Positions 21,299-64,000 of a stretch of DNA of 64,000 bases are shown in pieces. Below the pieces are notes generated by a model. The model searched no databases, was not told the DNA's origin, and was given only the letters and a program-made list of their open reading frames with translations. Position 1 is the first letter of the stretch. Each line of letters starts with the position of its first letter. This stretch comes from Agelas oroides (Eukaryota; Porifera; Demospongiae; Agelasida; Agelasidae), in the NCBI GenBank assembly GCA_949130485.1, contig OX422197.1, forward strand, positions 5,627,193 through 5,691,192, written 5' to 3'. Position numbers and translations under genes: made by a program.

Positions 21299-21439
21299 CA
21301 TTTAGCATGGGGAGTAGCCTGTGCTGAATGAGGCTAAGTAGTCAGCATAAGTCAGTGGAGATGGTAACAGATCTAGGCCTAGTACATCACTGCAACCGCT
21401 CAATACTGGTGCATGGAACTAAACAAGGATTTACCCGAT

Positions 21440-28341: not shown

Positions 28342-28392
28342 GTGAACATTTTCCTTTACTGTAGCTAGCTAGTCTCTACACAAACATCAACC
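28342..28392 (+). promoter_or_regulatory. conserved promoter-proximal block of gene 3
   Basis: GTGAACATTTTCCTTTACTG and TAGCTAGCTAGT match the blocks before genes 1 and 2, followed by an AACCATGTAC-type start context. Similarity starts abruptly at 28342, marking one edge of an older duplication. Confidence 0.5.
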
Positions 28393-36868: not shown

Positions 36869-37059
36869 ACTGCAATTCACTGTAATTTTGACATATCAAC
36901 AATTCATTCTTCAAAATTCCAAACAAAATTCAAACAATGAGTTTACTAATGCAAATAGTAATGCCCTATAGCTAACATGTTGCAGTTTACTTGGTACAAT
37001 AATCCTAAGTGCTAAACAAAATTCAAAATCTATTAATGCACAAATATTATTCCAGTCCA

Positions 37060-40000
37060 TAACATCAGCCAACAAGTAGCAGTTTACAGTGGGGAGGATG
37101 GGACACATCTTGTGGTAGTGATGGTCACAAGCCTCTGTCATTCCCTCGGCTTTGTGTAGTGACAGTTTCCCATAAAGGAAACAGTCAAACTCTGCACTGT
37201 AATCATTCTCACTGTGATAAGAGGAGAGCAGTAGGGATGGAGAAGAGGGAGGGAAAAAAGAAGGTGAAAGTCTGATGCTGAGAACACCACTAATTGTGAT
37301 GCACAGAGTAAACACTCTTTCCTAAAGCACATCTTAGCATACCATGTGATAAGGTGCAGTGGACTTACTTTGGCATTCCATGGAGGCGCATTTGGCAGAC
37401 GAGCATTACCACCATTACACAGTCTCCATGCATCATGCCTTGGGCTAAATGGTTGTACATCATCTGAAGGATGGTGAGGGAGAAGAGGGGAAGGGAGAGG
37501 AGAAGATAGGAAAGAAAGGAAAGTCACAATACTATCAACTTTATTGTTTGGTTACATATGCTAGCACTGCACGTACACACTCGCCATACCACACCACACA
37601 CACCCTCTCCATACAAACCTGGTAGGTGATAATGGACAGCTTCTCAACCATTTCCTTCAGGTTGGTATTCCCACTCAGAACCACCTGGAATACACCAACG
37701 AAGAACCGCATGGAACTCTGGTATAGGAAGTACACCTGTGAGAGAGAAACCCTTGTATTATGAGAGCTGTTTGGGGACATCATATGGGACATATAAGCAG
37801 GCTAGGAAACCAATTGCTCATGAAACTCCAAGACAATCTGCCATACTTCAACACTAAAAGCCACTTTGTAAACAAGTTTTAAGTTTGTGAGCATCTTGGG
37901 GTGTAATTGACTTGTAAACAACACTGAGACAAAGCACACCAACCTTGGCCTCCACTGTGGTGAGGTCTTCCTTCATGGCGTTTGCCTCAGTAATGAGGAT
38001 GGCATATTCCTCCTTGTATTTGGCAATACTGTTCTCCAGTTCATGGATAATGCCATCTATCTCATCTGCCTTGATGTAAGATGTCGCTTCTTGTGCCTCT
38101 ATGTCTTGTCGCAGTGGGTCCACACATTTTAGCATGTCTGCATAGTCAGTTGAGAAGTTGATGAGTTTAGGAATGACATTCTCTTGGATAAGAACACAGT
38201 TGATGGATGTCCACTCTGTAGCAGGCTCCCCAGTCAGTGGGTAGATACTCTCCATGCTCATTTTCATAAGTCGTGGAGACTGAGGGAGGAACTGAACCTT
38301 AACCAGGTGCTGGTTCTTCATTGTCTTGACAGCTGTACACAAAACAAGGTGGAGCTAATCACCAAAACCTTCTGTCAATCGCCTGAGCAGTAGAAGTCCG
38401 TAAAGTTTATTGTGGAAGAATAGGCAACTTTGTGTACTCAGCAGACATGGCCAGCTATTTATAACTGCAGCAATTGACAAACTGCACATGTGGTTTCGCT
38501 CAAGTAATCACCAAATGCTTTCATCAATCCCTCAAAAGAGGAGTTTACAAGCCGTATAAGTCCGTAAAACTTCATTTCTGCAAACAGGGCAGGCTACTTT
38601 TTGTGCACGAGTAAGCAACTCCGTGTGCTCGTCAGCCATGGTTAGCTATTTTCACATGATTACAATGCCATGGTTGACAAAGTGCTCATTCAGCCTTTGC
38701 AGCAGGCTATTTTTCACGCAAGAATAAGGAACTCCGCGTGCTCATCAGCCATGGCTAGTTATTTGACATGATTGTATTGCTGCAGTCTGCCGTATTAGTC
38801 CGTAAAAGTTCGTTACTACACTTGCAGCAGGCTACTTTTCACACAACAGTAAGTAACTCCGCGTGCTCTGCAGCCATGGTTAGCTGCGGTTGACAAAATG
38901 TACATGGGGCCCCTTGTAGAGTGATTTGTAAAGCAGTCATGTAGAAAGGCAACATATGCGTGTAACATACGTGCTTTTTGGTGAAATAAACTTTACATAG
39001 ATCTTTTCAGCACACTCTCCAGTAACATTAAATTAGCTCAGTAAATCTATTTCTGTACAGGAGCATTTCATCAAATCATTCCCCCTTCTCCTCAGCATTC
39101 ACTCTCTCCTCAGCATTCACCTCTCTCGACATCATTCACCTCTCTCCTCACCATTTTCCTCTCTCCTCATCATTTGCCTTTCTCCTCACCATTAACACAC
39201 CTCTCTTCACCCCTTGCTTGAACTTCTAGGGTGTTCTTCCGCTCATGTTCTTTCTTCTTGGTGGAGAGGGAGACCTGGAGCTCCTCCAATTAGTCCACCA
39301 TCTCTCTGATGTTATGTAGGCCCACCATGCGTAAACCAACTACACTGAACTTTGATCTTGAACTCTTTGGATCTGCACCCATTCTGCACATCTGAAAACT
39401 GCTTTTCAGTACAGACTACAACTCAAAGAAGATTGGTCAAAATGTCACTTGTACATGTGGTTTCGTTCTGTAATCTGGTTGGTACCGCCACATCCACACA
39501 GTGTGGTTTTATTAAAGGTTCATGCTTTTAGTTTAGTTAGTTGTTTGATTTGGAAAATTATAGTTTCCTGCTTTTACAATTATTTTGGTTAGTTTTAGTG
39601 TTAGGTACTTAAACTCCAAATTCCCTTACTAGAAGGTATTTAGTTATAGCATTAAGCTTTATGTTGAGTAGTTTTCTGTTTTGTACAGTTATGGTTTCTT
39701 CTTGGGTGTCTTAGTTTAGTTTAGTTATAGTTTCCAGTTTTGCCCAAACATGTTAGTTGGTTATAGTTCAACTAAAGCCATACTATGTAAAAGTTATTTA
39801 CTTATAGTTATAGTTAAATAAGACAACACTGGTGACGGAAGTCAGCAGCTTTTCCCACAAATATTACTAGGCTCTCTCCTCCCAGGATTTTAAGGAAACA
39901 GCCTGGGAACAAGGCTAGTACGTGTGTACGTGGAAGTCTGTATAGACACACATGGTGCTTACTGATGATTCATGTTCCCACTCACATAGTGCATGATGAA

Positions 40001-40442
40001 GTGTGGGTAGTAACGTGGGGTAACAGCCACGGTGGAGTCACCCTGCTTGGCCAGGCAGATGCGCATGGTGCAAGGTGTGATATGGATGTGTTAATGGTTA
40101 CTTGACTGTGAGTGGGCTGCTGAGGAAGTGCTGAATACACCAGAGGTAAATAGTTAGCAAAAACATACTGTTGAGAGTGAGAGAGTGGTGGCAAAGGGGA
40201 AGGGGGAGGGGGCGGGGAATGAGGGAAAGGAGGGGAAGGAGAGGAAGGAGGAAACACAAGAGAAGGAAGGAAGGAGGTGAACAAAATAATAACAGAAACA
40301 AACTACATATGCATCTAATATACAAGTATACTGTACTAAACAAATCACATCTGATTTCTCAAGGTCTACTTTGTTGGTGAACTCGTACCCCACTTGGTAG
40401 AGGGCGCCAGTGGCCTAGACTCCAAACCAGTTCAGCACACAC
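37060..40442 (-). pseudogene. DYNC1H1: cytoplasmic dynein heavy chain 1 mosaic pseudogene, unit 1
   Basis: Minus-strand pieces in transcript order. 40350-40442: CVLNWFG, stop, ATGALYQVGYEFTNKVDLEK (AAA4 end). 39986-40167: YVFANYLPLVYSALPQQPTH ... LAKQGDSTVAVTPRYY in shifting frames. About 39190-39365: VGLR-x-VGLHNIREMVD, stop, LEELQ (coiled coil 1). 37944-38332: AVKTMKNQHLVKV ... LIQENVIP-x-LINFS joined directly to YADMLKCVDPLRQD ... IAKYKEEYAILITEANAM (coiled coil 2). 37619-37735: VYFLYQSSMRFF ... LSIITYQ. 37369-37463: MMYNHLAQGMMHGDCV. About 37060-37211: NDYSAEFDCFLYGK. AG and GT splice borders are still visible. Missing are about 45 residues of the microtubule-binding domain and all of AAA5. 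Dynein is the minus-end microtubule motor; this copy cannot make one. Confidence 0.9.
38390..38900. repeat. intronic subrepeats of about 110-165 bp within the dynein unit (unit 1 instance)
   Basis: Three to four imperfect direct repeats share AGTCCGTAAA, GCAGGCTACTTTT, AAGTAACTCCGCGTGCTC and CAGCCATGGTTAGCT. They lie in the intron between the coiled coil 1 and microtubule-binding-domain exons. Unit 4 (near 52120) has lost one repeat of about 112 bp between two CGTCAGCCATGG sites, and unit 5 (near 56575) another between two CTCCGCGTGCTC sites. Confidence 0.8.
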
Positions 40443-41534
40443 CTGCAGGGAACAAGGACATGTGTATGTACATGACCAGGGAAGTTCGGCAGGGCTGAAT
40501 AATAACTACAATCCAATTTATATTGGTAAAGGTTTATGCAGATCCCCCCAAGATCAAAATGTTGCATGCTGTGTGCATTGCAAAGTCAATCATAGTTTGC
40601 ACTACTCGAAAACCAACTACCTCAGTAGTCTAGAGATGAGTACTAGCTCCCGTTGAGCACCTATTGAAACTCACATCATGAAAAGTTTGTAAGACAAGAT
40701 ACATGGACAGGAGTTCATTACGCTACTAGCTTCCAACTTCCTCGTTGATTGAATCATGGCCAAAATCTAGCATTGATGATTTACACCATCATTTGTGGAA
40801 AATGGGTTTTGTAAAACAAGCCAAAAATGGTCTTGTGACATAACTTGTTGGTTATATAAAGACACCAATGTTCCAAGTCTTTTCTCAGTGACAAGTTAGT
40901 CTTCTTGCTCACCTACCGAATAAAGCTTGTAGGTCTGCCACACCTCAGCACTCCAGCAGCTGTAGGACATGGACAATACTTATTCTCTAGTGTAATATAA
41001 TTTACTGATGAGGGATAACTCACCCTTGCTACCTATTGAAAAGCCTAGGTGTTGTTGAAATCTGTTCTAGAACCTTCCCATTTTAAAACTCTAACAGTGT
41101 GTCAACAGTAATGCACATCATGTTATGCTTATGCTTACAATACAAGGTGTTTGTACCACTCTGATATGGCATGTTTGTACTAGAGCAGATTACAGTTAAG
41201 GCTGAATCGAAAGTAGAATATTCCGTGTGATTTCAAGGAAATACAGTATATGGACACGATCGCAAAGTGCTGTGTAGTTTCTCAATACTTAGCGAAATCG
41301 AGATTGTGTCATTTGCATTGAAGATGTACCAACTTGAAATCATCCTTGTCATGCACACAGTACTGTAATTCACTGTAAATTTGACATATCAACAATTCAT
41401 TCTTCAAAAATCCAAACAAAATTCAAACAATGAGTTTACTAATGCAAATAGTAATGTCCCATGGCTAACAGGTTGCAGTTTACTTGGTACAATAATCATA
41501 AATGTTAAACAAAATTCAAAATCTACTAATGCAC

Positions 41535-44500
41535 AAATTTCATTATTCATGTCAGCCAACAAGTAGCAGTTTACAGTGGGGAGCATGGGACACATCTTGT
41601 GGTAGTGATGGTCACAAGCCTCTGTCATTCCCTCGGCTTTGTGTAGTGACACTTTCCCATAAAGGAAATAGTCAAATTCTGCACTGTAATCATTCTCACT
41701 GTGATAAAAGGAGAGCAGTAGGGATGGAGAAGAGGGAGGGAAAAAAGATGGTAAAAGTCTGATGCTGAGAACACCACTAATTGTGATGCACAGAGTAAAC
41801 ACTCTTTCCTAAAGCACATCTTAGCATACCATGTGATAAGGTGCAGTGGACTTACTTTGGCATTCCATGGAGGCGCATTCGGCAGACGAGCATTACTACC
41901 ATTACACAGTCTCCATGCATCATGCCTTGGGCAAAATGGTTGTACATCATCTGAAGGATGGTGAGGGAGGAGAGGGGAAGGGAGAGGAGAAGATAGGAAA
42001 GAAAGGAAAGTCACAATATTATCCTTTATTGTTTGGTTACATATGCTAGCACTGCACGTACACACTCGCCATACCACACCACACACACACCCTCTCCATA
42101 CAAACCTGGTAGGTGATAATGGACAGCTTCTCAACCATTTCCTTCAGGTTGGTATTCCCACTCAGAACCACCTGGAATACACCAACGAAGAACCGCATGG
42201 AACTCTGGTATAGGAAGTACACCTGTGAGAGAGAAACCCTTGTATTATGAGAGCTGTTTGGGGACATCATATGGGACATATAAGCAGGCTAGGAAACCAA
42301 TTGCTCATGAAACTCCAAGACAATCTGCCATACTTCAACACTAAAAGCTACTTTGTAAACAAGTTTTAAGTTTGTGAGCATCTTGGGGTGTAATTTACTT
42401 GTAAACAACACTGAGACAAAGACAACACCAACCTTGGCCTCCACTGTGGTGAGGTCTTCCTTCATGGTGTTTGCCTCAGTAATGAGGATGGCATATTCCT
42501 CCTTGTATTTGGCAAAACTGTTCTCCAGATCATGCATAATGCCATCCATCTCTTCTGCCTTCATGCAAGATGTCGCTTCTTGTGCCTCTATGTCTTGTCG
42601 CAGTGGGTCCACACATTTTAGCATGTCTGCATAGTCAGTTGAGAAGTTGATGAGTGTAGGAATGACATTCTCTTGGATCAGAACACTGTTGATGGATGTC
42701 CACTCTGTAGCAGGTTCCCCAGTCAGTGGGTAGATAGTCTCCATGCTCATTTTCATAAGTCGTGGAGACAGAGGGAGGAAGCGAACCTTAACCAGGTGTT
42801 GGTTCTTCATTGTCTTGACAGCTGTACACAAAACAAGGTGGAGCTAATCACCAAAACCTTCTGCCAATCGCCTGAGCAGTAGAAGTCCGTAAAGTTTATT
42901 GTGGAAGAATAGGCAACTTTGTGTGCTCAGAAGACCTGGCCAGCTATTTATAACTGCAGCAATTGACAAACTGCACATGTGGTTTCGCTCAAGTAATCAA
43001 CAAATGCTTTCGTCAGTCCCTCAAAAGAGGAGTTTACAAGCCGTATAAGTCCGTAAAACTTCATTTCTGCAAACAGGGCAGGCTACTTTTTGTGCACGAG
43101 TAAGCAACTCTGCGTGCTCGTCAGCCATGGTTAGCTATTTTCACATGATTACAATGCTGTGGTTGACAAAGTGCTCATTCAGCCCTTGCAGCAGGCTATT
43201 TTTCACGCAAGAATAAGGAACTCCGTGTGCTCGTCAGCCATGGCTAGTTATTTGACATGATTGTATTGCTGCAGTCTGCCGTATAAGTCCGTAAAAGTTC
43301 GTTACTACACTTGCAGCAGGCTACTTTTCACACAACAGTAAGTAACTCCGCGTGCTCTGCAGCCATGGTTAGCTGCGGTTGACAAAATGTACATGGGGCC
43401 CCTTGTAGAGTGATTTGTAAAGCAGTCATGTAGAAAGGCAACATACGCGTGTAACATACGTGCTTTTTGGTGAAATAAATTTCACATAGATCTTTTCAGC
43501 ACACTCTCCAGTAACATTAAATTAGCTCAGTAAATCTATTTCTGTACAGGAGCATTTCATCATTTCATTCCCCCTTCTCCTCACCATTCATTCTCTCCTC
43601 AAGCATTCACCTCTCACGACATCACCTCTCTCCTCACCATTTTCCTCTCTCCTCATCATTTGCCTTTCTCCTCACCATTAACACACCTCTCTTCACCCCT
43701 TGCTTGAGCTTCTAGGGTGTTCTTCCGCTCATGTTCTTTCTTCTTGGTGGAGAGGGAGACCTGGAGCTCCTCCAATTAGTCCACCATCTCTCTGATGTTA
43801 TGTAGGCCCACCATGCGTAAACCAACTACACTGAACTTTGATCTTGAACTCTTTGGATCTGCACCCATTCTGCACATCTGAAAACTGCTTTTCAGTACAG
43901 ACTACAACTCAAAGAAGATTGGTCAAAATGTCACGTGTACTTGTGGTTTTGTTCTGTAATCTGGTTGGTACCGCCACATCCACACAGTGTGGTTTTATTA
44001 AAGGTTTATGATTTTAGTTTAGTTAGTTGTTTGATTTGGAAAATTATAGTTTCCTGCTTTTACAATTATTTTGGTTAGTTTTAGTGTTAGGTACTTAAAC
44101 TCCAAATTCCCTTACTAGAAGGTATTTAGTTATAGCATTAAGCTTCATGTGGAGTAGTTTTCAGTTTCGTACAGTTACAGTTTCTTCTTGGGTGTTTTAG
44201 TTTAGTTTAGTTATAGTTTCCAGTTTTGCCCAAACATGTTAGTTAGTTATAGTTCAACTAAAGCCATACTATGTAAAAGTTATTTACTTATAGTTATAGT
44301 TAAATAAGACAACACTGGTGACGGAAGTCAGCAGCTTTTCCCACAAATATTATTAGGCTCTCTCCTCCCAGCATTTTAAGGAAACAGCCTGGGAACAAGG
44401 CTAGTACGTGTGTATGTGGAAGTCAGTATAGACACACATGGTGCTTACTGATGATTCATGTTCCCACTCACATAGTGCATGATGAAGTCTGGGTAGTAAC

Positions 44501-44927
44501 GTGGGGTAACAGCCATGGTGGAGTCACCCTGCTTGACCAGGCAGATGCGCATGGTGCAAGGTGTGATATGGATGTGTTAATGGTTACTTGACGGTGAGTG
44601 GGCTGCTGAGGAAGTGCTGAATACACCAGAGGTAAATAGTTAGCAAAAACATACTGTTGAGAGTGAGAGAGTGGTGGCAAAGGGGAAGGGGGAGGGGGCG
44701 GGGAATGAGGGAAAGGAGGGGAAGGAGAGGAAGGAGGAAACACAAGAGAAGGAAGGAAGGAGGTGAACAAAATAATAACAGAAACAAACTACATATGCAT
44801 CTAATATACAAATATACTGTACTAACAATCATATCTGATTTCTCAAGGTTTACTTTGTTGGTGAACTCGTACCCCACTTGGTAGATGGCGCCAGTGGCCT
44901 AGACTCCAAACCAGTTCAGCACACATC
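41535..44927 (-). pseudogene. DYNC1H1: dynein heavy chain pseudogene, unit 2
   Basis: Same exon remnants and the same two shared stops as unit 1. The main stalk exon spans 42433-42821 (389 bp, frame open). The last exon remnant carries a deletion of about 13 bp (AEFDYFLYGK ... LLADMNNEIC instead of LLADVMDWNN), shared with units 3, 4 and 6. The motif LEELQ is again preceded by a TAA. Confidence 0.9.
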
Positions 44928-46029
44928 TGCAAGGAACAAGGACATGTGTATGTACATGACCAGGGAAGTTCGACAGGGCTGAATAATAACTACAATCCAA
45001 TTTATATTGGTAAAGGTTTATGCAGATCCCCCCAAGATCAAAATGTTGCATGCTGTGTGCATTGCAAAGTCAATCATAGTTTGCACTACTGGAAAACCAA
45101 CTACCTCAGTAGTCTAGAGATGAGTACTAGCTGCCATTGAGCACCTATTGAAACTCACATCATGAAAAGTTTGTAAGAAAAGATACATGGACAGGAGTTC
45201 ATTACACTACTAGCTTCCAACTTCCTCGTTGATTAAATCATGACAAAAATCTAGCATTTATTATAATTGATGATTTAGACCATCATTTGTGGAAAATGGG
45301 TTTTGTAAAACAAGCCAAAAATGGTCTTGTGACATAACTTGTTGGTTATATAAAGACACCAATGTTCCAAGTCTTTTCTCAGTGACAAGTTAGTCTTCTT
45401 GCTCACCTACCGAGTAAAGCTTGTAGGTCTGCCACACCTCAGCACTCCAGCAGCTGTAGGACATGGACAATACTTATTCTCTAGTGTAATATAATTTACT
45501 GATGAGGGATAACTCACCCTTGCTACCTATTGAAAAGCTTAGGTGTTGTTGAAATCTGTTCTAGAACCTTCTCATCATCAAACTCTACCAGTGTGTCAAC
45601 AGTAATGCACATCATGTTATGCTTATGCTTACTATACAAGGTGTTTGTGCCACTCTGATATGGCATGTTTGTACTAGAGCAGACTACAGTTCAGTGTGAA
45701 TGGAAAGTAGAATATTTTGTGTGATTTCAAGGAAATACAGTATATGGACACGATCGCAAAGTGCTGTGTAGTTTCTCAATACTTAGCGAAATCGAGATTG
45801 TGTCATTTGCATGAAGATGTACCAACTTGAAATCATCCTTGTCATGCACACAGTATTGTAATTCACTGTAAATTTGACATATCAACAATTCATTCTTCAA
45901 AATTCCAAACAAAATTCAAACAATGAGTTTACTAATGCAAATAGTAATGTCCCATAGCTAACAGGTTGCAGTTTACTTGGTACAATAATCATAAATGTTA
46001 AACAAAATTCAAAATCTACTAATGCACAA

Positions 46030-49000
46030 ATTTCATTATTCATGTCAGCCAACAAGTAGCAGTTTACAGTGGGGAGCATGGGACACATCTTGTGGTAGTG
46101 ATGGTCACAAGCCTCTGTCATTCCCTCGGCTTTGTGTAGTGACACTTTCCCAGAAAGGAAATAGTCAAACTCTGCACTGTAATCATTCTCACTGTGATAA
46201 GAGGAGAGCAGTAGGGATGGAGAAGAGGGAGGGAAAAAAGAAGCTAAAAGTCTGATGCTGAGAACACCACTAATTGTGATGCACAGAGTAAACACTCTTT
46301 CCTAAAGCACATCTTAGCATATCATGTGATAAGGTGCAGTGGACTTACTTTGGCATTCCATGGAGGCGCATTCGGCAGACGAGCATTACCACCATTACAC
46401 AGTCTCCATGCATCATGCCTTGGGCAAAATGGTTGTACATCATCTGAAGGATGGTGAGGGAGAAGAGGGGAAGGGAGAGGAGAAGATAGGAAAGAAAGGA
46501 AAGTCACAATATTATCCTTTAATGTTTGGTTACATATGCTAGCACTGCACGTACACACTCGCCATACCACACCACACACACACCCTCTCCATACAAACCT
46601 GGTAGGTGATAATGGACAGCCTCTCAACCATTTCCTTCAGGTTGGTATTCCCACTCAGAACCACCTGGAATACACCAACGAAGAACCGCATGGAACTCTG
46701 GTATAGGAAGTACACCTGTGAGAGAGAAACCCTTGTATTATGAGAGCTGTTTGGGGACATCATATGGGACATATAAGCAGGCTAGGAAACCAATTGCTCA
46801 TGAAACTCCAAGACTATCTGCCATACTTCAACACTAAAAGCCACTTTATAAGCACGTTTTAAGTTTGTGAGCATCTTGGGGTGTAATTGACTTGTAAACA
46901 ACACTGAGACAAAGTACACCAACCTTGGCCTCCACTGTGGTGAGGTCTTCCTTCATGGCGTTTGCCTCAGTAATGAGGATGGCATATTCCTCTTTGTATT
47001 TGGCAATACTGTTCTCCAGATCATGCATAATGCCATCCTTCTCTTCTGCCTTCATGCAAGATGTCGCTTCTTGTGCCTCCATGTCTTGTCGCAGAGGGTC
47101 CACACATTTTAGCATGTCTGCATAGTCAGTTGAGAAGTTGATGAGTGTAGGAATGACATTCTCTTGGATCAGAACACTGTTGATGGATGTCCACTCTGTA
47201 GCAGGCTCCCCAGTCAGTGGGTAGATACTCTCCATGCTCATTTTCATAAGTCGTGGAGACAAAGGGAGGGAGTGAACCTTAACCAGGTGTTGGTTCTTCA
47301 TTGTCTTGACAGCTGTACACAAAACAAGGTGGAGCTAATCACCAAAACCTTCTGCCAATCGCCTGAGAAGTAGAAGTCCGTAAAGTTTATTGTGGAAGAA
47401 TAGGCAACTTTGTGTGCTCAGAAGACCTGGCCAGCTATTTATAACTGCAACAATTGACAAACTGCACATGTGGTTTCGCTCAAGTAATCAACAAATGCTT
47501 TCGTCAGTCCCTCAAAAGAGGAGTTTACAAGCCGTATAAGTCCGTAAAACTTCATTTCTGCAAACAGGGCAGGCTACTTTTTGTGCACGAATAAGCAACT
47601 CCGCGTGCTCGTCAGCCATGGTTAGCTATTTTCACATGATTACAATGCTGTGGTTGACAAAGTGCTCATTCAGCCCTTGCAGCAGGCTATTTTTCACGCA
47701 AGAATAAGGAACTCTGCGTGCTCGTCAGCCATGGCTAGTTATTTGACATGATTGTATTGCTGCAGTCTGCCGTATAAGTCCGTAAAAGTTCGTTACTACA
47801 CTTGCAGCAGGCTACTTTTCACACAACAGTAAGTAACTCCGCGTGCTCTGCAGCCATGGTTAGCTGCGGTTGACAAAATGTACATGGGGCCCCTTGTAGA
47901 GTGATTTGTAAAGCAGTCATGTAGAAAGGCAACATATGCGTGTAACATACGTGCTTTTTGGTGAAATAAACTTTACATAGATCTTTTCAGCACACTCTCC
48001 AGTAACATTAAATCAGCTCAGTAAATCTATTTCTGTACAGGAGCATTTCATCAAATCATTCCCCCTTCTCCTCACCATTCATTCTCTCCTCAAGCATTCA
48101 CCTCTGTCGACATCATTCACCTCTCTCCTCACCATTTTCCTCTCTCCTCATCATTTGCCTTTCTCCTCACCATTAACACACCTCTCTTCACCCCTTGCTT
48201 GAGCTTCTAGGGTGTTCTTCCGCTCATGTTCTTTCTTCTTGGTGGAGAGGGAGACCTGGAGCTCCTCCAATTAGTCCACCATCTCTCTGATGTTATGTAG
48301 GCCCACCATGCGTAAACCAACTACACTGAACTTTGATCTTGAACTCTTTGGATCTGCACCCATTCTGCACATCTGAAAACTGCTTTTCAGTACAGACTAC
48401 AACTCAAAGAAGATTGGTCAAAATGTCACTTGTACATGTGGATTTGTTCTGTAATCTGGTTGGTACCGCCACATCCACACAGTGTGGTTTATTAAAGGTT
48501 TATGATTTTAGTTTAGTTAGTTGTTTGATTTGGAAAATTATAGTTTCCTGCTTTTACAATTATTTTGGTTAGTTATAGTGTTAGGTACTTAAACTCCAAA
48601 TTCCCTTACTAGAAGGTATTTAGTTATAGCATTAAGCTTCATGTGGAGTAGTTTTCAGTTTCGTACTGTTAAGGTTTCTTCTTGGGTGTTTTAGTTTAGT
48701 TTAGTTATAGTTTCCAGTTTTGCCCAAACATGTTAGTTAGTTATAGTTCAACTAAAGCCATACTATACAAAAGTTATCTAGTTATAGTTATAGTTAAATA
48801 AGACAACACTGGTGACAGAAGTCAGCAGCTTTTCCCACAAATATTACTAGGCTCTCTCCTCCCAGCATTTTAAGGAAACAGCCTGAGAACAAGGCTAGTA
48901 CGTGTGTACGTGTAAGTCTGTATAGACACACATGGTGCTTACTGATGATTCATGTTCCCACTCACATAGTGCATGATGAAGTGTGGGTAGTAACGTGGGG

Positions 49001-50529: not shown

Positions 50530-53500
50530 ATTTCATTATTCATGTCAGCCAACAAGTAGCAGTTTACAGTGGGGAGCATGGGACACATCTTGTGGTAGTG
50601 ATGGTCACAAGCCTCTGTCATTCCCTCGGCTTTGTGTAGTGACACTTTCCCATAAAGGAAATAGTCAAATTCTGCACTGTAATCATTCTCACTGTGATAA
50701 AAGGAGAGCAGTAGGGATGGAGAAGAGGGAGGGAAAAAAGATGGTAAAAGTCTGATGCTGAGAACACCACTAATTGTGATGCACAGAGTAAACACTCTTT
50801 CCTAAAGCACATCTTAGCATACCATGTGATAAGGTGCAGTGGACTTACTTTGGCATTCCATGGAGGCGCATTCGGCAGACGAGCATTACCACCATTACAC
50901 AGTCTCCATGCATCATGCCTTGGGCAAAATGGTTGTACATCATCTGAAGGATGGTGAGGGAGAAGAGGGGAAGGGAAAGGAGAAGATAGGAAAGAAAGGA
51001 AAGTCACAATATTATCCTTTATTGTTTGGTTACATACGCTAGCACTGCACGTACACACTCACCATACCACACCACACACACACCCTCTCCATACAAACCT
51101 GGTAGGTGATAATGGACAGCTTCTCAACCATTTCCTTCAGGTTGGTATTCCCACTCAGAACCACCTGGAATACACCAACGAAGAACCGCATGGAACTCTG
51201 GTATAGGAAGTACACCTGTGAGAGAGAAACCCTTGTATTATGAGAGCTGTTTGGGGACATCATATGGGACATATAAGCAGGCAAGGAAACCAATTGCTCA
51301 TGAAACTCCAAGACAATCTGCCATACTTCAACACTAAAAGTCACTGTGTAAACAAGTTTTAAGTTTGTGAGCATCTTGGGGTGTAATTTACTTGTAAACA
51401 ACACTGAGACAAAGCACACTAACCTTGGCCTCCACTGTGGTGAGGTCTTCCTTCATGGCGTTTGCCTCAGTAATGAGGATGGCATATTCCTCTTTGTATT
51501 TGGCAAAACTGTTCTCCAGATCATGCATAATGCCATCCATCTCTTCTGCCTTCATGCAAGATGTCGCTTCTTGTGCCTCCATGTCTTGTCGCAGTGGGTC
51601 CATACATTTTAGCATGTCTGCATAGTCAGTGGAGAAGTTGATGAGTGTAGGAATGATATTCTCTTGGATCAGAACACTGTTGATGGATGTCCACTCTGTA
51701 GCAGGCTCCCCAGTCAGTGGGTAGGTACTCTCCATGCTCATTTTCATAAGTCGTGGAGACATAGGGAGGGACCGAACCTTAACCAGGTGCTGGTTCTTCA
51801 TTGTCTTGACAGCTGTACACAAAACAAGGTGGAGCTAATCACCAAAACCTTCTGTCAATTGCCAGAGCAGTAGAAGTCCGTAAAGTTTATTGTGGAAGAA
51901 TAGGCAACTTTGTGTGCTCAGAAGACCTGGCGAGCTATTTATAACTGCAGCAATTGACAAACTGCACATTTGGTTTCGCTCAAGTAATCAACAAATGCTT
52001 TCGTCAGTCCCTCAAAAGAGGAGTTTACAAGCCGTATAAGTCCGTAAAACTTCATTTCTGCAAACAGGGCAGGCTACTTTTTGTGCACGAGTAAGCAACT
52101 CCGCGTGCTCGTCAGCCATGGCTAGTTATTTGACATGATTGTATTGCTGCAGTCTGCCGTATAAGTCCGTAAAAGTTCGTTACTACACTTGCAGCAGGCT
52201 ACTTTTCACACAACAGTAAGTAACTCCGCGTGCTCTGCAGCCATGGTTAGCTGCGGTTGACAAAATGTACATGGGGCCCCTTGTAGAGTGATTTGTAAAG
52301 CAGTCATGTAGAAAGGCAATATATGCGTGTAACATATGTGCGTTTTGGTGAAATAAACTTTACATAGATCTTTTCAGCACACTCTCCAGTAACATTAAAT
52401 TAGCTCAGTAAATCTATTTCTGTACAGGAGCATTTCATCAAATCATTCCCCCTTGTCCTCACCATTCATTCTCTCCTCAAGCATTCACCTCTGTCGACAT
52501 CATTCACCTCTCTCGACATCATTCACCTCTCTCCTCATCATTTGCCTTTCTCCTCACCATTAACACACCTCTCTTCACCCCTTGCTTGAGCTTCTAGGGT
52601 GTTCTTCCGCTCATGTTCTTTCTTCTTGGTGGAGAGGGAGACCTGGAGCTCCTCCAATTAGTCCACCATCTCTCTGATGTTATGTAGGCCCACCATGCGT
52701 AAACCAACTACACTGAACTTTGATCTTGAACTCTTTGGATCTGCACCCATTCTGCACATCTGAAAACTGCTTTTCAGTACAGACTACAACTCAAAGAAGA
52801 TTGGTCAAAATGTCACTTGTACATGTGGTTTTGTTCTGTAATCTGGTTGGTACTGCCACATCCACACAGTGTTGTTTTATTAAAGGGTCATGCTTTTAGT
52901 TGTTTGATTTGGAAAATAGTGTTTAGTTACAGTTTTTACAATTATTTTGGTTACTAAAACTCCAAATTCCCTTACTAGAAGGCATTTAGTTATAGCATTA
53001 AGCTTCATGTGGAGTAGTTTTCTGTTTTGTACAGTTACGGTTTCTTCTTGGGTGTTTTAGTTTAGTTTAGTTATAGTTTCCAGTTTTGCCTAAACATGTT
53101 AGTTAGTTATAGTTCAACTAAAGCCATACTATGTAAAAGTTATTTACTTATAGTTATAGTTAAATAAGACAAAACTGGTGAAGGAAGTCAGTAGCTTTTC
53201 CCAAAAATATCACTAGGCTCTCTCCTCCCAGCATTTTAAGGAAAGAGCCTGGGTACAAGGCTAGTACGTGTGTACGTGGAAGTCTGTATAGACACACATG
53301 GTGTTTACTGATGATTCATGTTCCCACTCACATAGTGCATGACGAAGTCTGGGTAGTAGCTAATGTGGTGTTACAGCCATGGTGGAGTCGCCCTGCTTGG
53401 CCAGGCAAATGCGCTTGGTGCAAGGTGTGATTGATGTGTTAATGGTTACTTGACAGTGAGTGGGCTGCTGAGGAAGTTCAAAATACACCAGAGGGCAAAA

Positions 53501-53773
53501 GCATACTGTTGGGAGAGCGAGAGGGGTTGGTAGCAAAGGGGAAAGAGTGGGCAAGGATAGGTTAGATGAAGAATGAGAGGAAGGAGAGGAAGGAGGAGAG
53601 AGAAGAGAAAAAAGCAAACAAAATAATAAAAGAAACAAACTACATATAATATACAAGTATACTGTACTAAACAGATCACATCTGATTTGTCAAGGTCTAC
53701 TTTGTTGGTGAACTCGTACCCCACTTGGTAGAGGGTGCCAGTGGCCTAGACTCCAAACCAGTTCAGCACATAC
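50530..53773 (-). pseudogene. DYNC1H1: dynein heavy chain pseudogene, unit 4 (with a diverged 5' part)
   Basis: Stalk exon 51424-51812, 389 bp, open. The AAA4-side portion (about 52860-54700) is visibly more diverged than in the other units. Its second exon reads PLVYFELPQQPTHCQVTINT through ICLAKQGDSTMAVTP in a single frame (53360-53500), where the other five units need frame changes because they are 2 bp longer at this point. It has lost one intronic subrepeat of about 112 bp and carries the short form of the last exon. Confidence 0.88.
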
Positions 53774-54879
53774 CTGCAGGGAACAAGGACATGTGCATGT
53801 ATATGACCAGGGAACCTCAGCTGGGCTGAATAATAATTACAATACAATTTACATTGGATAAGGTTTATGCAGATCCCCCACATCAAAATGTTGCATGCTG
53901 TGTGCATTGCAAACTCAATCATAGTTTGCACTACTCGAAAACCAACTACCTCAGTAGTCTAGAGATGAGTACTAGCTGCCGTTGAGCACCTATTGAAACT
54001 CACATCATGAAAAGTTTGTAAGACAAGATACATGGACAAGAGTTCATTACACTACTAACTTCCAACTTCCTCGTTGATTGAATCATGACCAAAATCTAGC
54101 ATTGATTATAGTTGATGATTTAGACCATCGTTGGTTGAAAAAATGTTTTTGTAAAACAGGCCAAAAATGGTCTTGTGACATAGCTTGTTGGATATATAAA
54201 GATACCAATGTTCCAGTTGTGTTCCAAGTCTTTTCTCAGTGACAAGTTAACCTTCTTGCTCACCTACCGAGTCAAGCTTATAGGTCTGCCACACCTCAGC
54301 ACTCCAGCAGCTGTAGGACATGGACAATACTTGTAATATAATGTACTGATGAGGGATAACTCACCCTTGCTACCCATTCAAAAGCCTAGCTGTTGGTGAA
54401 ATTTGTTCTAGAACCTTCTCATTATAAAACTCTACCAGTGTGTCAACAGTAATGCACATCATGTTATATTTATGCTTACTATACAAGGTGTTTGTACCAC
54501 TCTGATATGGCATGTTTGTACTAGAGCAGACTACAGTTCAGTCTGAATGGAAAGTAGAATATTTTGTGTGATTTCAAGGAAATACTGTATGGACAGGATC
54601 ACAAAGTGCTGTGTAGTTTCTCAATACTTAGCGAAATCGAGATTATGTCATTTGCATGAAGATCATCTGACTTGAAATTGTCCTTCTCATGCACAGAGTA
54701 CTGTAATTCACTGTAAATTTGACACATCAACAATTCATTCTTCAAGATTCCAAACAAAATTCAAACAATGAGTTTACTAATGCAAATAGTAATGTCCCAT
54801 AGCTAACAGGTTGCAGTTTACTTGGTACAATAATCCTAAGTGCTAAACAAAATTCAAAATCTATTAATGCACAAATTTC

Positions 54880-57800
54880 ATTATTCCAGTCCATAACATC
54901 AGCCAACAGGTAGCAGTTTACAGTGGGGAGCATGGGACACATCTTGTGGTAGTGATGGTCACAAGCCTCTGTCATTCCCTCGGCTTTGTGTAGTGACACT
55001 TTCCCAGAAAGGAAATAGTCAAACTCTGCACTGTAATCATTCTCACTGTGATAAAAGGAGAGCAGTAGGGATGGAGAAGAGGGAGGGAAAAAAGAAGGTA
55101 AAAGTCTGATGCTGAGAACACCACTAATTGTGATGCACAGAGTAAACACTCTTTCCTAAAGCACATCTTAGCATACCATGTGATAAGGTGCAGTGGACTT
55201 ACTTTGGCATTCCATGGAGGCGCATTCGGCAGACGAGCATTACCACCATTACACAGTCTCCATGCATCATGCCTTGGGCAAAATGGTTGTACATCATCTG
55301 AAGGATGGTGAGGGAGAAGAGGGGAAGGGATAGGAGAAGATAGGAAAGAAAGGAAAGTCACAATATTATCCTTTATTGTTTGGTTACATACGCTAGCACT
55401 GCACGTACACACTCACCATACCACACCACACACACACCCTCTCCATACAAACCTGGTAGGTGATAATGGACAGCTTCTCAACCATTTCCTTCAGGTTGGT
55501 ATTCCCACTCAGAACCACCTGGAATACACCAACGAAGAACCGCATGGAACTCTGGTATAGGAAGTACACCTGTGAGAGAGAAACCCTTGTATTATGAGAG
55601 CTGTTTGGGGACATGATATGGGACATATAAGCAGGCAAGGAAACAAATTGCTCATGAAACTCCAAGACAATCTGCCATACTTCAACACTAAAAGTCACTG
55701 TGTAAACAAGTTTTAAGTTTGTGAGCATCTTGGGGTGTAATTTGCTTGTAAACAACACTGAGACAAAGCACACCAACCTTGGCCTCCACTGTGGTGAGGT
55801 CTCCCTTCATGGCGTTTGCCTCAGTAATGAGGATGGCATATTCCTCTTTGTATTTGGCAATACTGTTCTCCAGATCATGCATAATGCCATCTATCTCTTC
55901 TGCCTTCATGCAAGATCTCTCTTCTTGTGCCTCCATGTCTTGTCGCAGTGGGTCCACACATTTTAGCATGTCTGCATAGTCAGTGGAGAAGTTGACGAGT
56001 GTAGGAATGATATTCTCTTGGATCAGAACACTGTTCATGGATGTCCACTCTGTAGCAGGCTCCCCAGTCAGTGGGTAGATACTCTCCATGTTCATTTTCA
56101 TAAGTCGTGGAGACATAGGGAGGGACCAAATCTTGACCAGGTATTGGTTCATCATTGTCTTGACAGCTGTACACATAACAAGGTGGAGCTAATCACCAAA
56201 ACCTTCTGTCAATCGCCTGAGCAGTAGAAGTCCGTAAAGTTTATTGTGGAAGAATAGGCAACTTTGTGTGCTCAGAAGACCTGGCGAGCTATTTATAACT
56301 GCAGCAATTGACAAACTGCACATGTGGTTTCGCTCAAGTAATCAACAAATGCTTTCGTCAGTCCCTCAAAAGAGGAGTTTACAAGCCGTATAAGTCCGTA
56401 AAACTTCATTTCTGCAAACAGGGCAGGCTACTTTTTGTGCACGAGTAAGCAACTCCGCGTGCTCGTCAGCCATGGTTAGCTATTTTCACATGATTACAAT
56501 GCCGTGGTTGACAAAGTGCTCATTCAGCCCTTTCAGCAGGCTATCTTTCACGCAAGAATAAGGAACTCCGCGTGCTCTGCAGCCATGGTTAGCTGCGGTT
56601 GACAAAATGTACATGGGGCCCCTTGTAGAGTGATTTGTAAAGCAGTCATGTAGAAAGGCAATATATGCGTGTAACATATGTGCGTTTTGGTGAAATAAAC
56701 TTTACATAGATCTTTTCAGCACACTCTCCAGTAACATTAAATTAGCTCAGTAAATCTATTTCTGTACAGGAGCATTTCATCAAATCATTTCCCCTTCTCC
56801 TCACCATTCATGCTCTCCTCAAGCATTCACCTCTGTTGACATCATTCACCTCTCTCCTCACCATTTTCCTCTCTCCTCATCATTTGCCTTTCTCCTCACC
56901 ATTAACACACCTCTCTTCACCCCTTGCTTGAGCTTCTAGGGTGTTCTTCCGCTCATGTTCTTTCTTCTTGGTGGAGAGGGAGACCTGGAGCTCCTCCAAT
57001 TAGTCCACCATCTCTCTGATGTTATGTAGGCCCACCATGCGTAAACCAACTACACTGAACTTTGATCTTGAACTCTTTGGATCTGCACCCATTCTGCACA
57101 TCTGAAAACTGCATTTCAGTACAGACTACAACTCAAAGAAGATTGGTCAAAATGTCACTCGTACATGTGGTTTTGTTCTGTAATCTGGTTGGTACCGCCA
57201 CATCCACACAGTGTGGTTTATTAAAGGTTTATGATTTTAGTTTAGTTAGTTGTTTGATTTGGAAAATTATAGTTTCCTGCTTTTACAATTATTTTGGTTA
57301 GTTTTAGTTATAGTACTAAAACTCCAAATTCCCTTACTAGAAGGTATTTAGTTATAGCATTAAGCTTCATGTGGAGTAGTTTTCAGTTTCGTAAAGTGAC
57401 AGTTTCTTTTTGGATGTATACGTTTAGCTATACTTATAGTTTCCAGTTTTGCCCAAACATGTTAGTTAGTTATAGGTCAACTAAAGCCATACTATGTAAA
57501 AGTTATTTACTTATAGTTATAGTTAAATAAGACAACACTGGTGACTGAAGTCAGCAGCTTTTCCTGCGAATATTACTAGGCTCTCTCTTCCCAGCATTTT
57601 AAGGAAACAGCCTGGGAACAAGGCTAGTACGTGTGTACGTGGAAGTCTGTATAGACACACATGGTGCTTACTGATGATTCATGTTCCCACTCACATAGTG
57701 CATGATGAAGTCTGGGTAGTAATGTGGGGTAACAGCCACGGTGGAGTCACCCTGCTTGGCCAGGTAGATGCGCTTGGTGCAAGGTGTGATATGGATGTGT

Positions 57801-58151
57801 TAATGGTTACTTGACGGTGAGCGGGCTGCTGAGGAAGTGCTGAATACACCAGAGGTAAATAGTTAGCAAAAACATACTGTTGAGAGTGAGAGAGTGGTGG
57901 CAAAGGGGAAGGGGGAGGGGGCGGGGAATGAGGGAAAGGAGGGGAACGAGAGGAAGGAGGAAACACAAGAGAAGGAAGGAAGGAGGTGAACAAAATAATA
58001 ACAGAAACAAACTACATATGCATCTAATATACAAGTATACTGTACTAAACAAATCACATCTGATTTGTCAAGGTCTACTTTGTTGGTGAACTCGTACCAC
58101 AATTGGTAGAGGGCGCCAGTTGCCTAGACTCCAAACCAGTTCAGCACACAA
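54880..58151 (-). pseudogene. DYNC1H1: dynein heavy chain pseudogene, unit 5
   Basis: Stalk exon 55778-56166, 389 bp, open, with the variant QEERSCMKAEE also found in unit 6. Unlike units 2, 3, 4 and 6 it keeps the long last-exon form (LLADVMDWNNEIC), as does unit 1. One intronic subrepeat is lost near 56575. Shared stops are present. Confidence 0.9.
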
Positions 58152-59196
58152 CTGCAGGGAACAAGGACATGTGTATGTACATGACCAGGGAGTTCGGCAG
58201 GGCTGAATAATAACTACAATCCAATTTATATTGGTAAAGGTTTATGCAGATCCCCCCAAGATCAAAATGTTGCATGCTGTGTGCATTGCAAACTCAATCA
58301 CAGTTTGCACTACTGGAAAACCAACTACCTCAGTAGTCTAGAGATGAGTACTAGCTGCCGTAGAGCACCTATTGAAACTCACATCATGAAAAGTTTGTAA
58401 GACAAGATACATGGACAGGAGTTCATTACACTACCAGCTTCCAACTTCCTCGTTGATTGAATCATGGCCAAAATCTAGCATTGATTATAATTGATGATTT
58501 AGACCATCATTTGTGGAAAATGGGTTTTGTAAAACAAGCCAAAAATGGTCTTGTGACATAACTTGTTGGTTATATAAAGACACCAATGTTCCAAGTCTTT
58601 TCTCAGTGACAAGTTAGTCTTCTTGCTCACCTACCGAGTAAAGCTTGTAGGTCTGCCACACCTCAGCACTCCAGCAGCTGTAGGACATGGACAATACTTA
58701 TTCTCTAGTGTAATATAATTTACTGATGAGGGATAACTCACCCTTGCTACCTATTGAAAAGCTTAGGTGTTGTTGAAATCTGTTCTAGAACCTTCTCATT
58801 ATAAAACTCTACCAGTGTGTCAACAGTAATGCACATCATGTTATATTTATGCTTACTATACAAGGTGTTTGTATCACTCTGATATGGCATGTTTGTACTA
58901 GAGCAGACTACAGTTCAGTGTGAATGGAAAGTAGAATATTTTGTGTGATTTCAAGGAAATACCGTATATGGACAGGATCACAAAGTGCTGTGTAGTTTAT
59001 CAATACTTAGCGAAATCAAGATTGTGTCATTTGCATGAAGATGTACCAACTTGAAATCATACTTGTCATGCACACAGTACTGTAATTCACTGTAAATTTG
59101 ACATATCAATAATTCATTCTTCAAAATTCCAAACAAAATTCAAACAATGAGTTTACTAATGCAAATAGTAATGTCCCATAGCTAACAGGTTGCAGT

Positions 59197-59486
59197 TGTG
59201 CTGTCTCATATCAATTGTCTCATGGTGGCTTATGATGTGTTATGCTGTCTCATATAAACTGTCTCAGGGTGACTTATGATGTGTTATGCTGTCTCATATC
59301 AACTGTCTCACGGTGACTTATGCTGTCTCATATCAACTGTCTCATGGTGACTTATGATGTGTTATGCTGTCTCATATCAACTGTCTCATGGTGTCTTACG
59401 CTGTCTCATATCAACTGTCTCAGGGTGACTTATGATGTCTTATGTCAACTGTCTCATGGTAACTTATGGTGTCTCATGGTGTGACT
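59197..59486. repeat. 44-bp minisatellite inside the array
   Basis: Units of CTGTCTCATGGTGACTTATG, ATGTGTTATGCTGTCTCATA and variants, the same family as 36605-36868 beside unit 1, with several shortened units. Confidence 0.9.
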
Positions 59487-59885
59487 GAAATTCACTGTAA
59501 TTTTGACATATCAAGAATTCATTCTTCAAAATTCCAAACAAAATTCAAACAATGAGCTTACTAATGCAAATAGTAATGTCCTATAGCTAACAGGTTGCAG
59601 TTTACTTGGTACAATAATCCTAAGTGCTAAGCAAAATTCAAAATCTATTAATGCAAAAATTTCATTATTCCAGTCCATAACATCAGCCAACAGGTAGCAG
59701 TTTACAGTGGGGAGCATGGGACACATCTTGTGGTAGTGATGGTCACAAGCCTCTGTCATTCCCTCACAAGCCTCTGTCATTCATATGGCATGTTTGTACT
59801 AGAGCAGACTACAGTTCAGTGTGAATGGAAAGTAGAATATTTTGTGTGATTTCAAGGAAATACTGTATATGGACAGGATCACAAA

Positions 59886-60044
59886 TAGTCTCGGAGCCAG
59901 ACCCTCGCACGCGGAGAAGGAGGAGGGTCTGGTAAACTTGCATACATACAAATTTGAAGTCCGCGGAATTTCGGCGGAATGAATCTGATTGGTTGATGAC
60001 TGTGTAATTACATTTCTGCCCACAAAGGCACGTGTTCGAGACTA
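59886..60044. mobile_element. 159-bp TAGTCTCG mini-element with 9-bp target duplication
   Basis: Ends TAGTCTCG and CGAGACTA. Exact flanks GATCACAAA at 59877-59885 and 60045-60053. Unit 5 has the uninterrupted GGACAGGATCACAAAGTGCT at about 58972, so the empty site is documented. The interior is GC-rich at the left (CCAGACCCTCGCACGCGG) and non-coding. Confidence 0.9.
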
Positions 60045-60309
60045 GATCACAAAGTGCTGTATAGTTTCTCAATACTTAGCGAAATCGATTTGCATGAAGA
60101 TGTACCAACTTGAAATCATCCTTGTCATGCACACAGTACTGTAATTCACTGTAAATTTGACATATCAACAATTCATTCTTCAAAATTCCAAACAAAATCC
60201 AAACAATGAGTTTACTAATGCAAATAGTAATGTCCCATAGCTAACAGTTTGCAGTTTACTTGGTACAATAATCATAAATGTTAAACAAAATTCAAAATCT
60301 ACTAATGCA

Positions 60310-63300
60310 CAAATTTCATTATTCATGTCAGCCAACAAGTAGCAGTTTACAGTGGGGAGCATGGGACACATCTTGTGGTAGTGATGGTCACAAGCCTCTG
60401 TCATTCCCTCGGCTTTGTGTAGTGACACTTTCCCAGAAAGGAAATAGTCAAACTCTGCACTGTAATCATTCTCACTGTGATAAGAGGAGAGCAGTAGGGA
60501 TGGAGAAGAGGGAGGGAAAAAAGAAGGTAAAAGTCTGATGCTGAGAACACCACTAATTGTGATGCACAGAGTAAACACTCTTTCCTAAAGCACATCTTAG
60601 CATACCATGTGATAAGGTGCAGTGGACTTACTTTGGCATTCCATGGAGGCGCATTCGGCAGACGAGCATTACCACCATTACACAGTCTCCATGCATCATG
60701 CCTTGGGCAAAATAGTTGTACATCATCTGAAGGATGGTGAGGGAGAAGAGGGGAAGGGAGAGGAGAAGATAGGAAAGAAAGGAAAGTCACAATATTATCC
60801 TTTATTGTTTGGTTACATATGGTAGCACTGCACGTACACACTCGCCATACCACACCACACACACACCCTCTCCATACAAACCTGGTAGGTGATAATGGAC
60901 AGCTTCTCAACCATTTCCTTCAGGTTGGTATTCCCACTCAGAACCACCTGGAATACACCAACGAAGAACCGCATGGAACTCTGGTATAGGAAGTACACCT
61001 GTGAGAGAGAAACCCTTGTATTATCAGAGCTGGTTGGGGACATGATATGGGACATATAAGCAGGCTAGGAAACAAATTGCTCATGAAACTCCAAGACAAT
61101 CTGCCATACTTCAACACTAAAAGCTACTTTGTAAACAAGTTTTAAGTTTGTGAGCATCTTGGGGTGTAATTTGCTTGTAAACAACACTGAGACAAAGCAC
61201 ACCAACCTTGGCCTCCACTGTGGTGAGGTCTCCCTTCATGGCGTTTGCCTCAGTAATGAGGATGGCATATTTCTCCTTGTATTTGGCAATACTGTTCTCC
61301 AGATCATGCATAATGCCATTCATCTCTTCTGCCTTCATGCAAGATCTCTCTTCTTGTGCCTCCATGTCTTGTCGCAGTGGGTCCACACATTTTAGCATGT
61401 CTGCATAGTCAGTGGAGAAGTTGATGAGTGTAGGAATGATATTCTCTTGGATCAGAACACTGTTCATGGATGTCCACTCTGTAGCAGGCTCCCCAGTCAG
61501 TGGGTAGATACTCTCCATGCTCATTTTCATAAGTCGTGGAGACATAGGGAGGGACCAAATCTTGACCAGGTATTGGTTCATCATTGTCTTGACAGCTGTA
61601 CACATAACAAGGTGGAGCTAATCACCAAAATCTTCTGTTAATCGCCTGAGCAGTAGAAGTCCGTAAAGTTTATTGTGGAAGAATAGGCAACTTTGTGTGC
61701 TCAGAAGACCTGGCGAGCTATTTATAACAGCAGCAATTGACAAACTGCACATGTGGTTTCGCTCAAGTAATCAACAAATGCTTTCGTCAGTCCCTCAAAA
61801 GAGGAGTTTACAAGCCGTATAAGTCCGTAAAACTTCATTTCTGCAAACAGGGCAGGCTACTTTTTGTGCACGAGTAAGCAACTCCGCGTGCTCGTCAGCC
61901 ATGGTTAGCTATTTTCACATGATTACAATGCCGTGGTTGACAAAGTGCTCATTCAGCCCTTTCAGCAGGCTATCTTTCACGCAAGAATAAGGAACTCTGC
62001 GTGCTCGTCAGCCATGGCTAGTTATTTGACATGATTGTATTGCTGCAGTCTGCCGTATAAGTCCGTAAAAGTTCGTTACTACACTTGCAGCAGGCTACTT
62101 TTCACACAACAGTAAGTAATTCCGCGTGCTCTGCAGCCATGGTTAGCTGCGGTTGACAAAATGTACATGGGGCCCCTTGTAGAGTGATTTGTAAAGCAGT
62201 CATGTAGAAAGGCAACATATGCGTGTAACATACGTGCTTTTTGGTGAAATAAACTTTACATAGATCTTTTCAGCACACTCTCCAGTAACATTAAATTAGC
62301 TCAGTAAATCTATTTCTGTACAGGAGCATTTCATCAAATCATTTCCCCTTCTCCTCACCATTCATGCTCTCCTCAAGCATTCACCTCTGTCGACATCATT
62401 CACCTCTCTCCTCACCATTTTCCTCTCTCCTCATCATTTGCCTTTCTCCTCACCATTAACACACCTCTCTTCACCCCTTGCTTGAGCTTCTAGGGTGTTC
62501 TTCCGCTCATGTTCTTTCTTCTTGGTGGAGAGGGAGACCTGGAGCTCCTCCAATTAGTCCACCATCTCTCTGATGTTATGTAGGCCCACCATGCGTAAAC
62601 CAACTACACTGAACTTTGATCTTGAACTCTTTGGATCTGCACCCATTCTGCACATCTGAAAACTGCTTTTCAGTACAGACTACAACTCAAAGAAGATTGG
62701 TCAAAATGTCATGTGAACATGTGGTTTTGTTCTGTAATCTGGTTGGTATCGCCACATCCACACAGTGTGGTTTTATTAAAGGTTTATGATTTTAGTTTAG
62801 TTAGTTGTTTGATTTGGAAAATTATAGTTTCCTGCTTTTACAATTATTTTGGTTAGTTTTAGTGTTAGGTACTTAAACTCCAAATTCCCTTACTAGAAGG
62901 TATTTAGTTATAGCATTAAGCTTCATGTGGAGTAGTTTTCAGTTTCGTACAGTTACAGTTTCTTTGTGGATGTATTAGTTTAGCTATACTTATAGTTTCC
63001 AGTTTTGCCCAAACATGTTAGTTAGTTATAGTTCAACTAAAGCCATACTATATAAAAGTTATTTACTTATAGTTATAGTTAAATAAGACAACACTGGTGA
63101 CTGAAGTCAGCAGCTTTTCCTGCGAATATTACTAGGCTCTCTCTTCCCAGCATTTTAAGGAAACAGCCTGGGAACAAGGCTAGTACGTGTGTACGTGGAA
63201 GTCTGTGTAGACACACATGGTGCTTACTGATGATTCATGTTCCCACTCACATAGTGCATGATGAAGTCTGGGTAGTAATGTGGGGTAACAGCCACGGTGG

Positions 63301-63707
63301 AGTCACCCTGCTTGGCCAGGCAGATGCGCTTGGTGCAAGGTGTGATATGGATGTGTTAATGGTTACTTGACGGTGAGTGGGCTGCTGAGGAAGTGCTGAA
63401 TACACCAGAGGTAAATAGTTAGCAAAAACATACTGTTGAGAGTGAGAGAGTGGTGGCAAAGGGGAAGGGGGAGGAGGAGGGGAGTGAGGGAAAGGAGGGG
63501 AAGGAGAGGAAGGAGGAAACACAAGAGAAGGAAGGAAGGAGGTGAACAAAATAATAACAGAAACAAACTACATATGCATCTAATATACAAGTATACTGTA
63601 CTAAACAAATCACATCTGATTTGTCAAGGTCTACTTTGTTGGTGAACTCGTACCACAATTGGTAGAGGGCGCCAGTGGCCTAGACTCCAAACCAGCTCAG
63701 CACACAC
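60310..63707 (-). pseudogene. DYNC1H1: dynein heavy chain pseudogene, unit 6
   Basis: Stalk exon 61207-61595, 389 bp, open, with QEERSCMKAEE as in unit 5 but the short last-exon form as in units 2-4. Such mixed markers point to exchange between units. Intronic subrepeats are complete. Shared stops are present. The unit continues to the window end. Confidence 0.9.
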
Positions 63708-64000
63708 CTGCAGGGAACAAGGACATGTGTATGTACATGACCAGGGAGTTCGGCAGGGCTGAATAATAACTACAATCCAATTTATATTGGTAAAGGTTTA
63801 TGCAGATCCCCCCAAGATCAAAATGTTGCATGCTGTGTGCATTGCAAAGTCAATCACAGTTTGCACTACTCGAAAACCAACTACCTCAGTAGTCTAGAGA
63901 GGAGTACTAGCTGCCGTTGAGCACCTATTGAAACTCACATCATGAAAAGTTTGTAAGACAAGATACATGGACAGGAGTTCATTACACTACCAGCTTCCAA

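Follow-up and report, generated by a model that had tools for sequence, protein, structure and literature searches.

A tandem array beside DYNC1H1 in the sponge Agelas oroides, very probably grown from a truncated, unprocessed duplicate of the gene

How does a piece of a dynein heavy chain gene come to stand head to tail along a sponge contig, and does anything in such an array still work? The window, that is, the whole 64,000-nucleotide stretch analysed (C15:5627193-5691192), belongs to a genome of 259 Mb in 141 contigs. The array runs 32 kb past the window end, and the analysis was extended to C15:5829700, with coordinates above 64000 continuing the window numbering. A first, sequence-only reading had counted at least six head-to-tail units of about 4.5 kb; this count holds, and the array is even larger, with 13 units of ~4.5 kb each (4345-4654 bases; n = 13) over 59.2 kb (36879-96093, ending at C15:5723285). 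The start given in that reading, 36872, falls ~10 bases or less from the alignment edge. U1-U6 begin inside the window and U7-U13 outside it, pairwise identity between the 13 units is 93.1-99.3%, and the dynein fragment in the units lies on the minus strand. Unit borders are drawn in an arbitrary phase.

36410-36867, no strand: minisatellites (10/20-bp and 44-bp units) immediately beside the array's left edge
36879-41371, minus strand: U1
41372-45864, minus strand: U2
45865-50364, minus strand: U3
50365-54709, minus strand: U4
54710-59088, minus strand: U5
59089-60147, no strand: irregular stretch between U5 and U6, with unit pieces flanking a 44/34-bp minisatellite (59195-59477)
60148-64644, minus strand: U6 (cut by the window at 64000; the end is in extended numbering)

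The minisatellite of the left edge recurs in the irregular stretch alongside fragments of units, a picture that an older array edge, engulfed between U5 and U6, might leave. CTGTCC-type minisatellites flank the array on both sides, at 32187-33432 and ~96.1-96.8k, and match each other.

Are there really so many units, and are they confined to this locus? Genome searches, in which all counts are lower bounds, gave 17 matches to a 429-bp probe from the unit edge region (the 13 units, two unit pieces at 59-60 kb, the parental 3' flank and one parental piece) and 15 matches to a 531-bp stalk-exon probe (the 13 units and two parental exons), in both cases only on C15. A 72-residue parental stalk peptide matched 14 times, once in the parent and once in each unit. 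The absence of units outside C15 rests on these three probes, for which all candidates were scored (22/22, 16/16 and 14/14); a search with the whole unit, which scored 38 of 841 candidates and missed even the array, is left out of account. Long tandem repeats of near-identical units pose difficulties for assembly, and one could suppose that the array of 13 was inflated by the assembly, in part or as a whole. We judge this very unlikely, given that the units differ by 0.7-6.9% and have indels of their own, that older relics stand at the array edges and that the contig is 8.7 Mb long. The exact number of 13 could be off.

From which gene do the units descend? Among solved structures, the fused stalk peptide of U3 finds its best match in cytoplasmic dynein 1 heavy chain 1 (E 1.2e-24), and a DYNC1H1 gene adjoins the array in the same orientation, with its last exon at a distance of ~2.6 kb. 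Together these observations uphold the initial identification of the units as a fragment of cytoplasmic dynein heavy chain 1. That a parental gene with sound codons should exist was likewise correct; its location was not the distant one expected ("elsewhere"), as it is the array's immediate neighbor. The parent reads the sense codons TGG (133524-133526) and CAG (132109-132111) at the two sites where the units carry stops.

~98730-98867 (extended numbering), minus strand: DYNC1H1 last exon with stop
123-133.6k, minus strand: DYNC1H1 exons of the AAA6 start and the stalk
~144.6-148.4k, minus strand: DYNC1H1 AAA1 exons

Twelve joined parental exon pieces (613 residues) match chain 8dyu_A, a human cytoplasmic dynein 1 heavy chain 1, in three colinear stretches (E 2.4e-293). 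The pieces were chosen as stop-free, and the match thus shows the parent's identity and not the openness of the whole gene. One parental AAA1 match contains three stops, all of which fall before the splice acceptor. On this evidence the parent appears intact, and DYNC1H1 is essential in other animals. A second dynein, at C1:30.69-30.72 Mb (the best match of the stalk family PF12777), was also considered. No match to the unit was seen in its DNA, and its chained exons mostly show 30-60% protein identity to the C15 exons; it was dropped as a parent for these reasons and is putatively of the axonemal type.

The first sign of decay is a pair of stop codons. Stop 1, a TAG at a Trp site in the CVLNWFG exon, is present in 13/13 units, just as the sequence-only reading had it. 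Stop 2, at a Gln site before LEELQ, had been described as the same TAA everywhere; this is true of 12/13 units, including all six in the window (where both positions were checked in 6/6), but U13, which lies beyond the window, has TAG. As the closest unit to the gene, U13 may preserve an intermediate between CAG and TAA, because CAG to TAG to TAA needs the fewest changes; the alternative, a back-change in U13, takes an additional change. In the unit consensus, a net 10 bases are lost from the exon that follows the CVLNWFG exon, which shifts the frame.

U1, minus strand: stop 1 (TAG) 40415-40417; stop 2 (TAA) 39290-39292
U2, minus strand: stop 1 (TAG) 44899-44901; stop 2 (TAA) 43776-43778
U3, minus strand: stop 1 (TAG) 49395-49397; stop 2 (TAA) 48271-48273
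U4, minus strand: stop 1 (TAG) 53746-53748; stop 2 (TAA) 52658-52660
U5, minus strand: stop 1 (TAG) 58124-58126; stop 2 (TAA) 57000-57002
U6, minus strand: stop 1 (TAG) 63680-63682; stop 2 (TAA) 62554-62556

How was the unit built? It is colinear with at least eight parental pieces, of which the final one covers the last exon and 3' flank; they are listed here in gene order with parental coordinates.

133690-133647 and 133579-133028: first match
132144-132047: second match
131.93-131.57k: third match, intronic repeats common to unit and parent
130623-130425 joined to 129807-129481: fourth match, with loss of the microtubule-binding-domain exon
124236-123971: fifth match, with loss of 5.2 kb of the AAA5 region
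123644-123504: sixth match
123358-123252: seventh match
98808 to 98404: eighth match, last exon and 3' flank, with loss of 24 kb holding the C-terminal exons

Three large deletions thus separate unit from parent (the microtubule-binding-domain exon, the AAA5 region and the C-terminal exons), with further, smaller losses between the pieces. Comparison of unit and parent shows that part of the parental intron sequence is kept and that large blocks have been deleted. Could the unit instead stem from a partly spliced dynein RNA that re-entered the genome as a copy before its amplification? Fusion of two exons without the intervening intron, a last join that runs from exon to exon (with ~2 bases of overlap) and an AG just before the right end of the stalk-exon join are all features that a retro-origin would accommodate. 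However, the stalk-exon join breaks off 9 bases short of the first exon's donor and resumes 5 bases past the acceptor of the next exon, and its left end is not a GT; neither of the two exonic deletion joins examined is a splice junction. Introns, intronic repeats and an untranscribed-looking 3' flank were carried along, and parent and copy stand in tandem. The retained introns refute a retro-origin unless the template was unspliced, and we give it next to no chance. The retention of intron sequence, together with exonic joins that are not splice junctions, indicates that the source was genomic DNA and not mRNA, and the intronic repeats common to the parent support this part of the earlier interpretation as well.

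What remains of the unit has two single-copy counterparts, one in the 3' flank of the gene itself (98808-98404 and 98333-98271), the other in a relict to the left of the array (35928-35567). Single-copy flank relics on both sides of the array are understandable, because a tandem duplication that reaches past the 3' end leaves such relics. Where the duplicate was joined, ~170 bp (unit 598-767) could be assigned to neither, which counts against this account. The unit also holds a dispersed repeat.

35567-35928, minus strand: relict left of the array, single copy, matching unit 131-326 (72.6% identity), 406-435 (90%) and 496-597 (77.5%)
44044-44319, no strand: dispersed repeat of ~270 bp in U2, with a counterpart in 13/13 units

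A 461-bp probe holding this repeat matched 13/13 units and, among the best 40 of 759 candidates, had at least 28 matches on other contigs at 70-80% identity. The parental gene has no match to this part of the unit. The repeat would have been inserted after the duplication, and it either preceded the amplification or spread later by conversion.

In total, we conclude that the array is very probably a truncated, unprocessed DYNC1H1 duplicate that was amplified locally in tandem. In the first step of the proposed mechanism, a DNA-level tandem duplication would have spanned the gene from the AAA4 exons to beyond its 3' end; we read this step from the unit's composition and the edges of the array on both sides. 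In the second step, deletions would have stripped the extra copy of the microtubule-binding-domain exon, the AAA5 region and the C-terminal exons, and it would have acquired the two stops, the frame damage and the dispersed repeat, and died. The lesions themselves are observed in the units, and we infer part of their order. In the third step, to which the identities, the tree and the edges point, unequal crossing-over and gene conversion may have turned the dead copy into 13 homogenised units. Duplication, deletion and unequal exchange of the ordinary kind would suffice, and the data fit a history that needs no function or new mechanism.

Did the lesions come before the amplification? The units show 80.9-82.1% identity to the parent over 1966-2017 aligned columns, versus 93-99% to each other. 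A maximum-likelihood tree rooted on the parent places U12 and U13 outside the other 11 units (support 98), with support of only 53 for the two as a joint group. The pairs U5/U10, U4/U9 and U7/U8 have support of 100 each. Because sister pairs stand five units apart (in two of the three cases), block duplication within the array is suggested. The parental base is kept by U13 alone at 5 sites, by the other 12 units at 13 and by neither at 2; for U12 and U13 together, it is kept at 6 sites versus 9 for the rest. A root at U13 is less clear, as these site patterns would not cleanly place it there. The claim that the lesions predate amplification gains from the finding that the stops and the stalk-exon join also occur in U12 and U13, which are nearest the parent in the tree, but sharing alone is no proof: tandem arrays homogenise, so lesions common to all units do not strictly establish priority.

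The stalk exon raises a separate question: why is it open? The fused exon is open in 13/13 units (131 codons in 11 units and 133 in U12 and U13), and the deletion inside it is in frame. Its YADML-to-VEAKV part lies as follows.

U1, 37941-38144, minus strand: fused, open
U2, 42430-42633, minus strand: fused, open
U3, 46921-47124, minus strand: fused, open
U4, 51421-51624, minus strand: fused, open
U5, 55775-55978, minus strand: fused, open
U6, 61204-61407, minus strand: fused, open

Could the array be functional, transcribed as long or small RNA or translated into short stalk peptides without the microtubule-binding domain, and in this way influence DYNC1H1? Its closeness to the last exon of the gene, on the same strand, and the open, in-frame fusion speak for such a role. 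So does the count of nonsense changes: among 59 changes, one was scored against the majority codon, yet a stop is read in 0 units, against an expectation of 2.0-2.4, a weak excess of expected over real stops. The stalk exon has no gapped consensus columns, versus 20% over the unit; the neighboring, mostly intronic 200-column blocks 2801-3000 and 3401-3600 likewise have none. Against function, changes between units (14 synonymous and 44 nonsynonymous) fit a pattern of no selection, for which 12.1-14.7 and 42.3-44.6 are expected; mean pN/pS among units is 0.79, and diversity in the stalk exon (0.047) is not below the mean of the whole unit (0.039). Parent-versus-unit dN/dS is 0.41-0.58 (13 comparisons). 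At the amino acid positions where parent and unit differ, 8dyu_A shares the parental residue at 22-27 sites, the unit residue at 0-2 and neither of them at 11-13; that is, the assignable changes fall nearly all on the unit side. Because 8dyu_A sides with the parent, these dN/dS values fit one constrained lineage and one free lineage. A coding function of the open stalk exon is thus not supported. A Pfam scan of the fused stalk peptide gave no family, and an Rfam scan of the window gave no family at gathering score. A functional array is in our estimate very improbable, and we see equally slim prospects for a functional non-coding partner of DYNC1H1, for example, one making repeat or small RNAs that match the stalk exons and tune the gene. 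The array's product looks dead.

Is there a precedent? The Drosophila gene sw encodes cytoplasmic dynein intermediate chain. In Drosophila melanogaster, Sdic is described as arising by segmental duplication over sw and AnxB10, deletion fusion and tandem expansion; it has six copies over ~46 kb in the reference strain, unequal crossing-over is expected to alter its copy number, and it is a chimeric gene family affecting sperm competition (PMC7475035). On that description, Sdic is the closest precedent for the sponge array, with the same route from duplication to deletion fusion to tandem expansion. In contrast to Sdic as described there, the sponge units derive from the heavy chain gene alone and, with two stops in 13/13 units, frame damage in the consensus and no visible selection, would not each encode an open chimeric protein.

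Macrosatellites are usually hundreds of kilobases long and highly polymorphic (PMC3599962). The array resembles human D4Z4, DXZ4 and RS447 in its kilobase units (4.3-4.7 kb), head to tail at one locus, with two unit probes matching only on C15. It differs in measuring 59.2 kb with 13 units in one assembly ("usually" in that source sets no strict bound) and in having its parent gene beside it. The earlier label "satellite-like" suits the tandem kilobase units but is generous for 13 units, 59 kb and one locus. Like an unprocessed pseudogene, the copy keeps parental introns, which speak for a DNA-level origin, has disabling changes where an intact-looking parent has TGG and CAG, and shows no visible constraint on protein, as measured on one exon, the fused stalk exon; unlike one, it was amplified to 13 homogenised copies. 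In open-access literature (titles and abstract openings), we found no earlier report of a dynein heavy chain pseudogene array. An intact-looking parent, single-copy edge relics, gene-proximal near-root units and homogenised inner units stand on one contig. Since most stages from gene to dead array are thus visible together, the locus is a good case for the origin and spread of satellite-like arrays, and it is an unusually complete record of an ordinary mechanism. For annotation it is also a warning, with 13 false dynein fragments in a stretch likely variable in copy number.

The window holds other repeats and open frames. A direct duplication of 4.7 kb (4601-9319 and 10672-15371, plus strand) has 97.5% identity. 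Three long open frames on the plus strand, at 6544-8586 (681 codons), 12617-14638 (674) and 28369-30375 (669), look like related cysteine-rich multi-pass membrane proteins; a Pfam scan of two of the three gave no family. Across positions 1-4562, a 10-bp unit (TCTACCTCAC) is repeated in a long array that has a strong GC skew and higher-order periods of 31, 41 and 72 bp. About 11 CCCTAA copies at 21231-21299 are telomere-like and internal to the contig, and two arrays at 21600-21861 and 26274-26619 are built on a common TTTATAAA core with periods of 21, 41, 62 and 82 bp.
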